Shown here: one piece after another, positions 2,832 to 20,471 of the stretch | Numbering within the stretch: position 1 is the stretch's first letter | Layout of the letters: each line of letters opens with the position of its first letter | IMG/VR virus record: IMGVR_UViG_3300018080_000314 | Coordinates: 1 to 39,996 of that record | Source of the DNA: a virus | DNA: 39,996 bases | Strand: one strand, 5' to 3' | Program-made: the position numbers and the translations under genes | The notes under the pieces: model-generated | Database searches by the model: none | The model's input: the letters and a program-made list of their open reading frames with translations, nothing else | What the model was told of the DNA's origin: nothing

Positions 2832-3148
2832 GTGATTAACCTCCTTGTTTGAACTTTAATAATTTCCCAGATACTCGACCATATTCCTTCTGGGGCATAA
2901 TCTCCTGTCCTGTATTTCAAGGGAATATCCAGTTGGGGATATTCCTCCGCATATTCAGTCCTATATCTGTGGTACAAAAGCACCAAAACATATCGCCATG
3001 ACTTGATGATATATTTCACAAGGCAAGACGGTCTTACACAATCTATTGGTGCAGGTCCCTCTATCATGGCCTGTCTCGATACCAACTTTCCGCCTCTTTT
3101 ATGAACTACCCCCCAGTTCAATCTTAATCCTGATTTACTTATTGTCAT
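2777..3148 (-). CDS. Hypothetical protein, 123 aa
   Basis: This basic, Trp/Tyr/Arg-rich protein starts at an ATG 14 bases inside the 3' end of the glycosyltransferase gene and overlaps the next gene by 55 bases. The middle part (SWRYVLVLLYHRYRTEYAEEY) looks like a genuine amphipathic alpha-helical segment. The last ~20 residues overlap the Shine-Dalgarno and start of the downstream gene, so that end may be less constrained. No family is recognised. The unusual overlap lowers confidence, but without it this stretch would be an unexplained 300-base gap in a tightly packed operon. Confidence 0.5.
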   Translation of the reverse strand: MTISKSGLRLNWGVVHKRGGKLVSRQAMIEGPAPIDCVRPSCLVKYIIKSWRYVLVLLYHRYRTEYAEEYPQLDIPLKYRTGDYAPEGIWSSIWEIIKVQTRRLITWLKVKRQPTRVMENSAS

Positions 3149-4751
3149 GTTCTCCCTCTGTTATCTCGATAGTGGCTCTCTTAATATGCTTGCACCACAC
3201 TCCAGTATGTGCGTACACTCTGGAGCCTGCCTTTCTAACCTTCTCGCAATTGTGAGAGACAAATCCATCAGCTATAAAATTACCACTCGTTGTGGTAAGA
3301 CACTTAACATCTCGCTTACCTATTTTCTCTATGGCTATAATCATAGGCTGGCTTGATTGTAATATCTTGTATCCATTGGCACCCTGCCCATTGAGACTAA
3401 TTTTTCGGGTGATTGCCGGTGAAGTAGATTGCCAGAATTGATGGCATAATTTTTGTGAGGCAAATTGTATCTCATATAAGCCATCGTTTCGTGTATTACA
3501 TTTAGCAGTAATACCTATCAAGGAAAGAGCCAATTCAATTTCGTCTGCTATTTGTTTCTTTTTGTTGGCTATCCGTAGTAACCCCTTCCTGTAGGAGCCC
3601 TCAGCGTCATATATTCCAGCTAGGAAACCTTGAGCTATCAACTTGGAATCTATTGGTTTATTGCATATATTTTGTATACCCTTCCCACAATAAAATCCCC
3701 ATAATGGCTTCCAATTGCGGTTATTTAATTGGCGTTCCCTTATCTCGCCTGCCACTAATCCCAATTCATTAACAAACTTATGCGCTCTAATAATCGCCTC
3801 TTTGTCAGTCATTTCTATGGTTGCATAACCTCTTGGGTTAATGGCTCCATCACCCTGCCAAACTCCTTTAATATAACCCGCCTTGTATTCTGTGTTGCCA
3901 GTATTGGGATTAGGGAAGGGTTCTATGGGCGTATTAAGGCGTTGCCCTATGTGTAGTTTTTCAACAGTAAGCCATCTCGTAGCTGTCCCGCTAGGACTAC
4001 TTGCCAACAACGGGTGTTTTGCTGTGGCTATTATCTCACCATTTGTAGTAATAACCCTATAAGCATCTTGGATTTGCTCAACCACATCAGTTACCTTCGC
4101 AACCTGATAAGAACGATGATTGGCTGATGGGGCAGAGAAGCCTATTACCTCGTCACCAATTCCAAAATCCCCCAAGGGTTTCCATCTGAAATCAGGCATA
4201 AGCACAGAAGTATTAGATAAGAGTGGAAAGTCCCAGTCCTCCGACAGGAAGAACCCGTCGTAAACTCTGGTCTCAAAGAAGGGATAACAGGTCATCCAGT
4301 CGTCCTTCTGCAACAGGGGCATATCTTTACTGATTTTCTCTAATATCCTTCGGCTTATGCCCATAAATCCTGTCGAGGCATACCTTACGTCTAAAACCTC
4401 GCCAGTCAGCGGAACCTGCTGGTCTTCCCAGTCGCAGATGGCTATTTGGTTTCCACCCTGCATGGCGTATAATCCAGCAATAACGTCCTTCCCGCTTTTG
4501 AGTTCGTCCAGAATCTTGGTTACATCCTCTGGCTCGAACACAATATCGGCATCGAGGAATATCATGTACGGAGCGTCACTTCTAGTAAGGAATCTATACG
4601 CTGCTACGCTTCTTGCACGGGCTATCAATGCATCCCCAGTCACAAACCACCAGTCAAAGGTGTGATCAGTCTTGTGTAATTTCTCTACCGAAGTGATGGT
4701 TTTGGACATCACATCCAGATAGGCACAGGTGTATAGTATGAAATCTTGCAT
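3135..4751 (-). CDS. GT-A glycosyltransferase interrupted by an in-frame intein
   Basis: The exteins form a family-2-like GT-A glycosyltransferase of about 212 residues. It has a sugar-nucleotide fold with the metal-binding motif FLDADIVF and, late, SEDWDF joined after splicing to CEKVRKAG, which is the usual acidic GT motif region. An in-frame insertion of 326 residues separates F from C in that motif and carries intein splicing blocks and two LAGLIDADG-type motifs. The enzyme would transfer a sugar in the cytoplasm, perhaps to a capsid or tail protein or to a host surface precursor; the acceptor cannot be read from sequence. The frame is open 30 bases further to a TTG at 4781, but that TTG lies in an RNA hairpin and has no Shine-Dalgarno, so I prefer the ATG at 4751. 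Residue numbers in other entries count from the TTG. Confidence 0.85.
   Translation of the reverse strand: MQDFILYTCAYLDVMSKTITSVEKLHKTDHTFDWWFVTGDALIARARSVAAYRFLTRSDAPYMIFLDADIVFEPEDVTKILDELKSGKDVIAGLYAMQGGNQIAICDWEDQQVPLTGEVLDVRYASTGFMGISRRILEKISKDMPLLQKDDWMTCYPFFETRVYDGFFLSEDWDFPLLSNTSVLMPDFRWKPLGDFGIGDEVIGFSAPSANHRSYQVAKVTDVVEQIQDAYRVITTNGEIIATAKHPLLASSPSGTATRWLTVEKLHIGQRLNTPIEPFPNPNTGNTEYKAGYIKGVWQGDGAINPRGYATIEMTDKEAIIRAHKFVNELGLVAGEIRERQLNNRNWKPLWGFYCGKGIQNICNKPIDSKLIAQGFLAGIYDAEGSYRKGLLRIANKKKQIADEIELALSLIGITAKCNTRNDGLYEIQFASQKLCHQFWQSTSPAITRKISLNGQGANGYKILQSSQPMIIAIEKIGKRDVKCLTTTSGNFIADGFVSHNCEKVRKAGSRVYAHTGVWCKHIKRATIEITEGEHDNK
3249..4226 (-). mobile_element. Intein with LAGLIDADG homing endonuclease, proline at position 1
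   Basis: The insertion covers 326 codons. Its N-terminal block A reads PLLSNTSVLMPDFRWKPLG, followed by GIGDEVIGF. Block B is TTNGEIIATAKHPLL. The endonuclease motifs are GYIKGVWQGDGAI and FLAGIYDAEGSY. Block F is DVKCLTTTSGNFIADG and block G is FVSHN followed by the +1 cysteine. The boundaries come from the extein, since EDWDF joined to CEKVRKAG restores a continuous glycosyltransferase motif. Position 1 is therefore Pro rather than the usual Cys or Ser. A Trp after block B (LTVEKL context) and a Cys in block F match the W and C of the WCT signature of class 3 inteins, which lack a nucleophile at position 1; the third position (before HN) is Ser here, not Thr. Splicing activity is inferred. 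Confidence 0.85.
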
Positions 4752-4761
4752 TTGAAAGTTA

Positions 4762-4785
4762 GGGGTTGTTTGGAGGCACAACCCC
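4762..4785 (-). promoter_or_regulatory. Hairpin before the glycosyltransferase start
   Basis: A perfect 8-bp stem (GGGGTTGT with ACAACCCC, loop 8 bases) lies in the 52-base gap after the 225-aa gene and just before the ATG at 4751. There is no U-run, so it is not a standard terminator. It hides the alternative TTG at 4781 and may be an mRNA stabiliser or a partial attenuator. Confidence 0.45.
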
Positions 4786-11600: not shown

Positions 11601-13261
11601 TGCAGTATCTGGGTCTTGGCATTGGGTTTTGGTGTAACAAGAGCTTCTTTTACCCCGATAACGCCAGCCTTGACTATGTTGTTTATCCCACTAACAAACT
11701 CCTGTGGAGTGTTTTTAGCCACCAAGCCTGTTATAGAAGCTGTGGTTAGTTCCTTGCCACTTTGAACAGCCCCAACGATATTATCAACTGTCTTGGTGGT
11801 AGCCTCAATGCCTTCATTTAACAACCGTACTGCGTTTTCTTCAGGTACTCTTGTGGCTCTGAGTGCTGCTTTCTTTGCATCTAAATACGCAGATGCCTGC
11901 CTAACCAAATATTCATTATGAAGGGTATATATCTTATACAATAATCTGTTTTTGGTGGTAAGGTGGCTAAGGTCGGGCTTACCGCCCTTTGTAGGTACGT
12001 TCTGAGCTATACCCACAATACGCTTTGCATTTTTGTCTAAATATGCACTCAGAATCTTTTGAGTACCAGTTGATAAAGCCCTTGACGGCAGCCTCATCAA
12101 TGCGGTAACTCCCTGCTCATATAATTCGATGGGTTTTAAGGCAACCCTTCCAGCCTGTGCGACTCTGCCTGCAACCCCCCCACCTTTTATTATTGGTTGT
12201 AATGCACTCCTGACTGCACCAGCACTAGGCATTAACGCCAGTGTTAATACTGGCATAATCCATTCGCCAATAAATTGCTCACCCTTGCTTAACGAAGTAC
12301 CAAGTCCTAATTGCGGTGCAGTATAAAGATAGTCAGGGGGCAATGTAGGTAATGGTAATGTCTCCTCTAACTCCTCCTCTGTTATCGGGCCTATTGTCAA
12401 ATCCTTTGTGGGCTTATCCATTAAGTCCTCAACCCACTGTTCGGGATTAGTTATATTATGGCTAGAGGCCCAACTCACTAATTGATGTTTATAGTCACTT
12501 AATTGCTGTTGTTCTGGGGACATCCAGTAATACGGATTGAGGGGAATAGATTTCCATACAGCACTAAAGAAATTCCTAATCTTTTGTCCAGCACTTACCC
12601 CCTGTGGTTTTATTTCGCCAGTTGTGGGGTCTAACGTGCCAACAGTTTGATTAGTTGCATCAACCACAGAATAATCTGGGAGAATCTTAAACCCATCACC
12701 CAAATCAACCCCCTCTTGGGGGATTTCAATATTTGTTTTCGTTTCTGCGGGCAAATTACCAGATTCAACCTTGTCGTACCAATCATTGATTAGTTGTTCC
12801 TTTTGTTCGGGGCTATAATCTGCCCAATTTACATCTACCTGACGTGTCTCCCACTTAGCCCAATCCTCTGCCTCATCCCTTATAGCCTTGCTCCTGGCTT
12901 CTGCTGTTGCTGCCTCTGCCTGCTGGACAACCTGTCCAGTCCAAGACCTGCCAGACATTATCTGTTGTTTAATAGAAGATTGATTAATAGGGATAAGGCC
13001 ATCAACACTATATCCCAGGTCTAACAACTTTCTGTTGGCATCCCTTATCTCATCCCATGCACTGTAACGCTGTTCTGCAAGAGCATAACTTCTAGCCAAT
13101 TCACCACTGCGTATATTCTTCTGGCGTTCCTCCTCTGCCAATCGCTGTTTACGTGCCTCTGTCTGCCTGGCCAGCCTATCCAATAGGCTATTGGTCTTAG
13201 AACGTGTCACATTGGCTTCACGTGTAACTATATCTGCTGTTTGCCACCATTTAAGTCCCAT
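8612..13261 (-). CDS. Giant internal virion/ejection protein with LPD38-like C-terminus
   Basis: This 1,549-residue protein is the largest gene that lies wholly within the window. The N-terminus is a charged coiled coil (LLDRLARQTEARKQRLAEEER). Helical and low-complexity regions follow, with a hydrophobic stretch near LTLALMPSAGAVRSAL and further long coiled coils. The C-terminal ~400 residues carry alternating amphipathic and hydrophobic helices (HFTLAALGVKVNVAFKQ, ATKRSQPSFG, LFTMFQSQPNKYYR, NLLNILLAWWVLPAMF). These resemble the large polyvalent-protein domain LPD38 and podovirus ejection proteins. It lies between the portal-side genes and the scaffold, where podoviruses encode internal core proteins. 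It is likely carried in the head and injected with DNA. The domain label is moderately certain. Confidence 0.75.
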   Translation of the reverse strand: MGLKWWQTADIVTREANVTRSKTNSLLDRLARQTEARKQRLAEEERQKNIRSGELARSYALAEQRYSAWDEIRDANRKLLDLGYSVDGLIPINQSSIKQQIMSGRSWTGQVVQQAEAATAEARSKAIRDEAEDWAKWETRQVDVNWADYSPEQKEQLINDWYDKVESGNLPAETKTNIEIPQEGVDLGDGFKILPDYSVVDATNQTVGTLDPTTGEIKPQGVSAGQKIRNFFSAVWKSIPLNPYYWMSPEQQQLSDYKHQLVSWASSHNITNPEQWVEDLMDKPTKDLTIGPITEEELEETLPLPTLPPDYLYTAPQLGLGTSLSKGEQFIGEWIMPVLTLALMPSAGAVRSALQPIIKGGGVAGRVAQAGRVALKPIELYEQGVTALMRLPSRALSTGTQKILSAYLDKNAKRIVGIAQNVPTKGGKPDLSHLTTKNRLLYKIYTLHNEYLVRQASAYLDAKKAALRATRVPEENAVRLLNEGIEATTKTVDNIVGAVQSGKELTTASITGLVAKNTPQEFVSGINNIVKAGVIGVKEALVTPKPNAKTQILQLKIQLGRKQESLERLKLFEPNETAEIKAQEEMVKYLQDQIGELEGGAVKPTAPTVEVTALAEGETVTGEVLEGEVSMTGLESKEYDALKQLRTLRTRYANQKIKYEDVKKQLIDYVKENLPKEAQGKMLASVKNVRTEAGLQKALNLADKYAEQAAQKNLKSQITKELRTITPKKQVTGYRYGRFTAETQRQLTEIKKNTAMDREAAKSQILQNMEAAENGKMSFEEADKANEILAYSGLKGMSSGELADTLQQIKSLKETGRGLRAAEKEAEAERIEKLRTDVINTVTGGKGIKPGVGTIDTHDLWAREGKVKSFVTNWQYGMDDIFDKVSRFDKSSKPFQSPVSQIGFSMHTARSINQAGIQNWIDGKTADRVKEIYGIKGRGELHKFLGRLATDKIDIGTFVNTEGKQLKLSLTKDQIIQKYLELQDPTLDETFRVGMKWTDEMMSAVRDSMTADDIEYANWLSKQYVNDYGKTIKPAFEEKYHIPLPENPHYVPLNRELEGSYYEHILTAQDNYRYAGVSNNSLKARTKNRIPLKFNGATQVWVRHVIQMEHFKAFWKPMKEARMVFRNPDVRTAIKQYHGNDILKHIDRHLDDIARDGIDRALIVQSIDKLRGHFTLAALGVKVNVAFKQALSVPAYLTYEPMPIKDFFTGVADFWKHPKSSINEMRELSGYFTERWGRGHERDVRLVKEKDVAGRLSNAKNWRDLLMLGIHKVDTAVTQPGAWSVYKSMLRQGMSKQEAITHAEVATKRSQPSFGLEDMAALRKHGSWGKLFTMFQSQPNKYYRLIADSARNLRAGRGSRGRNLLNILLAWWVLPAMFQLVSDAFQWKSEHQARVAILGPANYLLAAGQILQSAYGWITGEPFPAEASPVFSTLREMQYALTGTVNLIEQGKDPLKDVDTEYLVRTIEHYAKGVGQIVGVPTPYAVQIERMIRNADLRQLVFSEYALKNEGDAVGALQDAYAQAYGYKKWADMPDNLKEHFYELRPDLK

Positions 13262-19601: not shown

Positions 19602-19631
19602 TTGACAAAGGTTTAGAGATTGTTATATAGT
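19602..19631 (+). promoter_or_regulatory. Strong sigma-70 promoter of the rightward cluster
   Basis: TTGACA (19602-19607), an 18-base spacer and TATAGT (19626-19631) precede the first rightward gene by about 30 bases. This is the best consensus promoter in the window and suggests strong early expression. Confidence 0.8.
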
Positions 19632-19662: not shown

Positions 19663-19959
19663 ATGACAGAACAGGAGTTACAGTTTCAACGAGAGTATGG
19701 TGAACGCAAGGCTAAAAGGATATTGCGAGCAGCCAAATACGCTGATGTTATAGCTCGCATCCCTAGTAATGGGAGCATTATTGAACTAAGGCGTAGTCTG
19801 CGTTCAAAGGGTTATCGTAGTAACTACGAGCCTGTGCCCCAGTATTGGGCAATAGAATACAAGGACGGTAAGCCTGTTTATGGGAGAAGTCTAACAGAAA
19901 AGGCTTACCAGGAAGCCAAGGCTTACGCCCTCAAACATCGGAATATACATTTACCATAA
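19663..19959 (+). CDS. First gene of rightward cluster, 98 aa
   Basis: A basic protein with a charged helical N-terminus (ELQFQREYGERKAKRILRAA), a middle of alternating polar residues (GSIIELRRSLRSKGYRSNYE) and a C-terminal helix (TEKAYQEAKAYALKHRN). AAAGGAG is 7 bases before the ATG. Its TAA is followed without a gap by the hammerhead ribozyme, so a terminating ribosome would cover the 5' part of the ribozyme. No family is recognised. Its early position suggests a host-takeover or regulatory role, which is inference. Confidence 0.75.
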   Translation: MTEQELQFQREYGERKAKRILRAAKYADVIARIPSNGSIIELRRSLRSKGYRSNYEPVPQYWAIEYKDGKPVYGRSLTEKAYQEAKAYALKHRNIHLP

Positions 19960-20013
19960 GCCCGAAACTGCCCTCCGGGGCAGTCTAGCGGTTAATCCGC
20001 TACTGATGAGGGC
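19960..20013 (+). ncRNA. Type II hammerhead self-cleaving ribozyme
   Basis: All core elements are present in circularly permuted order. The 3' strand of stem II is GCCC (19960-19963), then GAAA (19964-19967). Stem III is CTGCCC/GGGCAG with loop TCCG (19968-19983), and GTC is the cleavage triplet (19983-19985). Stem I is TAGCGG/CCGCTA with loop TTAAT (19986-20002), then CTGATGA (20003-20009) and the stem II 5' strand GGGC (20010-20013). The open end is stem II, hence type II. The predicted cut is after C19985. It is transcribed with the rightward cluster and would split the message between its first and second genes. After cutting, the upstream RNA ends in the stem III hairpin and the downstream RNA begins with the stem I hairpin. 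Confidence 0.92.
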
Positions 20014-20032
20014 ACTTTAACAACTGAATATG

Positions 20033-20058
20033 TTTCGAGGTTGACTCCTGGGCTGGTA
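20033..20058 (+). repeat. Left arm of a 26-nt inverted repeat bracketing the second gene
   Basis: TTTCGAGGTTGACTCCTGGG plus CTGGTA can pair in RNA with 20446-20471: 24 of 26 positions pair, two of them as G-U, with one two-base internal mismatch. It lies between the hammerhead ribozyme and the ribosome site of the 120-aa gene. Confidence 0.75.
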
Positions 20059-20072
20059 GGAAAGGAGCCAAT

Positions 20073-20435
20073 ATGAGCAAGGCTAGTGATGTGGCTTATA
20101 AACTCTGCAACGGTACGAAGCTCACAATCCAAGAGTTTAGCATAGCCATAGAAAAGGGAATGCTAACAGGCCCAAAGCCTCAAACCCAAGAGGAATTAGC
20201 CGAAAGTTATCTATACTGGGTAGCTGGCTATTACGAGAATAGTAAACACAGGGGTTATCTGTGTAGTAGCCATCCTACCAAGTGGATAAGAGACCTGCCT
20301 CATGGGGGTAAAGAGTTCTGTAGTGGGGGAATCCACATGGATGAGGTTAACCCTAAAGCCCTAACTAAGGAAAATCTAAAGTTTCTCCGCCACCATTTTG
20401 GCAAGGATAAAGTCAAGGAAATAACAGGAAGCTAA
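20073..20435 (+). CDS. Hypothetical protein, 120 aa, between inverted repeats
   Basis: AAAGGAG lies 5 bases before the ATG. The N-terminus (YKLCNGTKLTIQEFSIAIEKG) looks helical. The core has Tyr/Trp/Cys/His residues (YWVAGYYENSKHRGYLCSSH, DLPHGGKEFCSGGIH), with two cysteines and several histidines that could bind a metal. The C-terminus is basic. No family is recognised. It is enclosed by a 26-nt inverted repeat that would loop the whole ORF out of the mRNA, and it lies directly downstream of the hammerhead ribozyme. Confidence 0.7.
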   Translation: MSKASDVAYKLCNGTKLTIQEFSIAIEKGMLTGPKPQTQEELAESYLYWVAGYYENSKHRGYLCSSHPTKWIRDLPHGGKEFCSGGIHMDEVNPKALTKENLKFLRHHFGKDKVKEITGS

Positions 20436-20445
20436 ATAAACCATT

Positions 20446-20471
20446 TACCAGTCCAGGCATCAGCCTCGAAA
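20446..20471 (+). repeat. Right arm of the 26-nt inverted repeat
   Basis: TACCAGTCCAGGCATCAGCC plus TCGAAA is the imperfect reverse complement of 20033-20058. It begins 11 bases after the stop of the 120-aa gene. Within it a smaller local hairpin is possible (ACCAGT with ACTGGT further downstream). Confidence 0.75.

Follow-up and report, generated by a model that had tools for sequence, protein, structure and literature searches.

A complete type II hammerhead ribozyme lies between two genes of the window, the entire 39,996-b IMG/VR virus record analysed here, and at its 3' end some of its bases also belong to a boxA-like sequence that heads a cassette in which gene 2 is flanked by the arms of a long-range helix. 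The same cassette recurs around unrelated small genes in other phages. The reading tentatively preferred, at a little below even confidence, is that a genuine type II hammerhead occupies the leader of a gene cassette headed by boxA, and that its cut would give the cassette a 5' end of its own. The features on which this reading is built are collected in Table 1.

Table 1. Features of the hammerhead-boxA locus in the window (positions are those of the whole record)
Feature	Position	Strand	Basis or remark
Sigma-70-like promoter, TTGACA-18-TATAGT	19602-19631	+	consensus match only, 11/12
Gene 1, 98 aa, without family match	19663-19959	+	stop TAA 19957-19959
Type II hammerhead ribozyme, paired core	19960-20013	+	covariance models, fold, structure scan
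Stem II 5' strand GCCC, partner 20010-20013, 4 bp, open	19960-19963	+	sequence, fold
Stem III hairpin ACTGCCC-TCCG-GGGCAGT, 7 bp, UNCG-type loop (UCCG)	19967-19984	+	sequence, fold
Predicted cleavage site C19985/T19986	19985-19986	+	hammerhead consensus
Stem I hairpin TAGCGG-TTAAT-CCGCTA, 6 bp	19986-20002	+	sequence, fold
Core CTGATGA	20003-20009	+	sequence
Predicted pseudoknot strand UUAA(C), against loop I UUAA 19992-19995	20017-20021	+	G19991-C20021 optional fifth pair
boxA-like GCACTTTAACAA (20012-20023) and conserved CTGAATA	20012-20030	+	consensus match
Arm 1 of long-range helix, 26 nt	20033-20058	+	inverted-repeat search
Gene 2, 120 aa, between the two arms, no family match	20073-20435	+	ribosome-binding site AGGAAAGGAG directly after arm 1
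Arm 2, inverted copy of arm 1	20446-20471	+	24/26 positions pair, counting G-U

A type II hammerhead behind gene 1

No DNA similarity links the window to isolated phages, and identity between its terminase and known phage terminases is only about 25%. Elsewhere in the record, the minus strand (3135-4781) encodes a protein that matches glycosyltransferase-2 over a short stretch and contains a LAGLIDADG/intein-like insert (Pfam PF14528, 48.3 bits; NCBIfam intein-containing profile, E 1.3e-16), probably an intein within a phage glycosyltransferase. Upstream of gene 1 is a near-consensus promoter, in agreement with the strong promoter proposed in the initial annotation, and the ribozyme does begin, as also stated there, on the base after the gene 1 stop codon. 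Gene 1 has no protein family match, and no relatives of it were found in IMG/VR by the related-locus search; the idea that it is a conserved or mobile companion of the ribozyme was rejected on these grounds.

Read along the plus strand, the ribozyme consists of GCCC, GAA, the stem III hairpin, the C that precedes the predicted cut, the stem I hairpin, CTGATGA and GGGC. Every conserved core base is present (CUGANGA, GAA, the A15.1-U16.1 pair and H17), and both the fold and the Rfam alignment have the type II permutation, in which loops close stems I and III and stem II is open. Minimum-free-energy folding yields the type II hammerhead (-28.8 kcal/mol, z -4.3, with none of 200 shuffles as good), and this fold dominates the ensemble with all stem pairs intact. 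The core pattern was matched once in the window and never in 100 shuffles, and a structure scanner that requires pairing found a single hit in the window, against a total of one for 100 Markov shuffles. A pseudoknot of at least 4 bp between loop I and the 3' tail is present in the majority of type II hammerheads. The one predicted here has 4 bp, or 5 with the closing G, and is equalled by 5% of random loops; with its strand included, the functional element probably reaches to about 20021. Sequence, fold, scans and covariance models thus bear out the complete type II hammerhead of the initial annotation, and the predicted fold has the hairpins expected at both new RNA ends. The helix lengths given there (4, 6 and 6 bp) are right for stem II and stem I, and stem III has 7 bp rather than 6 when A15.1-U16.1 is included.

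The Rfam type II model (RF02276, Hammerhead_II), proposed earlier as a check, aligns to the ribozyme over its full length (33.3 bits; E 2.7e-5 on 261 b, and E 9.6e-7 for the same hit on the whole record), but the score falls short of the gathering score of that family, 37 bits; no Rfam family attains its own gathering score anywhere in the window. Membership is therefore claimed for the type II hammerhead class and not at the curated Rfam cut-off. Scored with a model of 39 type II hammerheads from other phages, the window reaches 61 bits (E 1.8e-12). This figure is partly favoured, because the pattern used to gather those 39 contained CCCGAAAC and CTGATGAGGG and so shared the core and part of stem II with the window.

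The earlier statement that type II is far less common than types I and III is contradicted by a survey in which type II is as frequent in bacteria as the other two and often forms clusters flanking prophage genes (Perreault et al. 2011, PMC3088659), as well as by a single pattern scan of IMG/VR, which yielded 31 phage stretches, all 31 of them with properly paired type II hammerheads according to the structure scanner and one contig (L010) with up to five. As a ribozyme, that of the window belongs to a known kind, since type II hammerheads are common in bacteria, prophages and IMG/VR phages; tandem examples cleave in vitro, and one set does so in E. coli also (PMC3088659). Arrays of three to five per phage contig were noted in L010 (8521-11529), L028 (428-2465), L015 and L019. 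Most of the 39 other hammerheads end 6 to 25 nt upstream of a ribosome-binding site and start codon, and the placement before ribosome-binding sites in L002-L032 suggests a general leader-processing habit of phage type II hammerheads.

Bases shared with a boxA-like sequence

In bacteria, boxA is the signal by which the antitermination complex of RNA polymerase is loaded. From 20012 onward the window reads GCACTTTAACAACTGAATA, in which the boxA-like sequence agrees at 10 of 11 positions, with one mismatch, with the consensus GYTCTTTAANA, an E. coli (PMC5725501) and gammaproteobacterial consensus that may not be that of the host. Among the boxA bases are the final two of stem II and the strand predicted to pair with loop I in a pseudoknot. 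The 16-mer CTTTAACAACTGAATA has a single exact occurrence in the window. The boxA pattern was found at 17 sites in 25 records, many of which had been selected by that same pattern, and a backwards control pattern was found at none. A pattern combining boxA with a ribosome-binding site matched ten stretches of a genome collection; on inspection arms were present in none of them, and these matches were taken as chance.

When CTGATGAG was required with CTTTAACAAYTGA no more than 12 nt downstream, a single record was recovered, L073, with a full hammerhead at 12228-12285 whose stem sequences differ from those of the window. It scores 50.2 bits (E 8.5e-10) against the model of 39 hammerheads and folds with z -4.2, and it goes unreported by the Rfam Hammerhead_II model at E 0.1. 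Here also the 3' strand of stem II (GGCT) overlaps a boxA, GCTCTTTAACA, which matches the E. coli consensus exactly, and loop I (UAAAG) is complementary to CUUUA of the boxA, a predicted pseudoknot attained by 0.6% of random loops. The boxA is followed by arms, ATACTGGAGCGGGTA and TACCCGCTCCAGTAT, around the next gene. The L073 hammerhead lies in the 3' end of an upstream reading frame (12085-12291), the stop codon of which is the TAA of the boxA, so translation should compete with folding of the ribozyme. The L073 record contains nothing that matches the window terminase, its 14.5-kb locus nothing that matches a window reading frame, and gene 1 has no similarity to the gene that precedes the L073 ribozyme.

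Because the 3' end of the hammerhead shares boxA-like bases, messenger cutting and loading of the antitermination complex may be linked. The strongest form of such a link is considered rather unlikely: that hammerhead and boxA are one composite switch, in which Nus loading would compete with self-cleavage and an rRNA-like boxA-helix unit would be handed to the downstream gene, and that this switch arose or was exchanged at least twice, in the window and in L073.

The main rival explanation is that this is an ordinary phage mRNA-processing hammerhead, which would split gene 1 from gene 2 and set the downstream 5' end, with its contact to boxA incidental. The leader positions of most of the 39 other hammerheads favour it, as does the finding that none of them is followed by a real boxA (the sole string flagged lies within a coding region), and the clusters that flank prophage genes are thought to trim long transcripts to gene-length messages (PMC3088659). 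Such a view has to accommodate two unlike hammerheads that abut the same boxA, share bases with it and match it in loop I, and also the roughly 44 nt between the window ribozyme and the ribosome-binding site of gene 2, more than is usual for phage hammerheads. It is nonetheless a substantial possibility, perhaps somewhat over a third of the way to certainty.

A predicted helix around gene 2 and its recurrence as a cassette

Arm 2 lies 387 nt beyond arm 1, and the arms flank gene 2 so that it falls inside a predicted long-range RNA helix, as rRNA does inside its leader-trailer helix. No other inverted pair in the window, at spacings of up to 1 kb, attains 24/26 or better, and ten shuffles together gave one such pair. 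As in a leader-trailer helix, the flanking arms are long and complementary and their pairing is retained in relatives. Four positions between the arms are not Watson-Crick pairs; two of these are G-U, and the changes in relatives keep the pairing, which favours an RNA helix over an inverted repeat acting at the level of DNA. A local hairpin hiding the ribosome-binding site of gene 2 was considered and rejected, since the region 19986-20090 folds no better than shuffled sequences.

The cassette has the order boxA, arm 1, ribosome-binding site, small gene, arm 2, and was found around unrelated small genes in ten records (L048, L050, L052, L054, L055, L057, L059, L060, L062 and L073), as two tandem copies in L052, as two copies in L054 and with other arms in L048; where it is repeated in tandem, the genes inside can differ from copy to copy. 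Arm duplex energies range from -34 to -51 kcal/mol, against shuffled means of about -29, and most sites surpass all 10 of their shuffles, the exceptions being the second site of L052 and those of L056, L058 and L061. Four distinct versions of the type B arms keep 24 of 24 pairs, two of them with changes on both sides, whereas slid pairings keep at most 52%, and L060 has a compensatory change from G-C to A-U. Compared with column shuffles, arm covariation gave 48/500 and 175/500; the support that it lends is weak to modest because distinct arm sequences are few. No description of boxA-headed helices around single small phage genes was found in the open-licence PubMed Central literature.

The arms also bear on whether the likeness to boxA is coincidental, CTTTAACAACTGAATA being instead a basal part of the helix or a DNA-level element that involves no Nus factors. 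In favour of this, the 3' arm (AGAGGTTAA) of L057, L059 and L060 could pair with the entire boxA region. Against it, L050, L062 and L073 match the gammaproteobacterial consensus exactly, and in the window and L055 the helix offers the boxA no partner, yet it is kept regardless; coincidence is judged improbable.

Several phages carry the boxA-helix cassette without the ribozyme, and in these the boxA is often right behind a promoter. The terminase of L050 is 65% identical to that of the window, and its cassette has a promoter-like sequence directly before the boxA, arms and an unrelated gene between them, with neither gene 1 nor a ribozyme; DNA similarity between the window and L050 starts at 20015, just past the hammerhead. 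The hammerhead is absent from the 19 records found through relatives of gene 3 and the terminase, and conservation of the ribozyme across the relatives of this phage (0/19) was rejected. The ribozyme is not obligatory, as L048, L057 and L060 have other sequence before the boxA and no hammerhead. A search of 13 boxA-cassette records with the Rfam model found no hammerhead either, a soft negative because the same model missed that of L073 at E 0.1. These ribozyme-free relatives, the abutting boxA-like sequence and the leader-trailer-like helix had all been overlooked in the initial annotation.

A ribozyme found in none of the searched relatives of this phage could be silent or slow in the cell, as a recent acquisition or a relic, or through a block by translation or by a competing structure. 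The pseudoknot is indeed weak, and of 18 consensus hammerheads assayed by Perreault et al., 4 showed no cleavage; the other 14 were active (PMC3088659), however, and the window ribozyme has an intact core and intact stems in a dominant fold, which makes a silent ribozyme very unlikely.

Proposed processing and comparison with known systems

Under the preferred reading, in which the cut supplies the 5' end of the cassette, the transcript from the promoter upstream of gene 1 would fold and cleave itself after C19985 while transcription continues. Gene 1 would be freed as a separate message with its 3' end closed by hairpin III, and the downstream RNA would begin at 19986 with hairpin I, with the boxA 26 nt from the new 5' end, an end resembling that of the relatives in which the boxA is just behind a promoter. 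Until the cut, folding for cleavage and binding of NusB-S10 to the boxA would probably be mutually exclusive, because boxA bases serve both as the last 2 nt of stem II and in the predicted pseudoknot. After it, the upstream strand, held by only 4 bp, could leave and so free the boxA. If held at the polymerase in the manner of rRNA operons, it may then help arm 1 to find arm 2, and the resulting helix around gene 2 could protect that gene or be a target of RNase III.

The window ribozyme resembles other type II hammerheads (RF02276; PMC3088659) in its core, its open-stem-II permutation and its position between phage genes, and a pseudoknot of 4 to 5 bp between loop I and the 3' tail is predicted for it. 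It differs from them in scoring below the Rfam gathering threshold, in having the 3' strand of stem II and the predicted pseudoknot strand as part of a boxA-like sequence, and in preceding a boxA-helix cassette rather than a ribosome-binding site directly. The hammerhead HHphage of haloviruses HF1 and HF2 is likewise a phage hammerhead in a polycistronic leader, and a mapped RNA 5' end is within 3 nt of its predicted cut (PMC3088659); unlike that of the window, it has a variant core and lies 13 nt before a start codon, and no boxA is mentioned for it. The leader of suhB also has a boxA ahead of an mRNA ribosome-binding site (PMC5725501), but there the boxA is 6 nt from the Shine-Dalgarno sequence and represses translation, whereas about 34 nt and a helix arm intervene in the window.

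In rRNA operons the leader arm comes after boxA, which is proposed to keep that arm close to the polymerase until the trailer appears (PMC10250234). The phage cassette shares with the rRNA leader a boxA followed within about 10 to 20 nt by the 5' arm of a long helix, the 3' arm of which lies behind the enclosed RNA; it differs in that its predicted helix encloses a short protein-coding gene and is repeated as cassettes around unrelated genes. A group of phages appears to enclose single small genes in long-range helices headed by boxA, a layout otherwise familiar from rRNA operons, and the two unlike hammerheads that share boxA-like bases offer a concrete and testable hypothesis, that self-cleavage may be tied to antitermination in phage operons.
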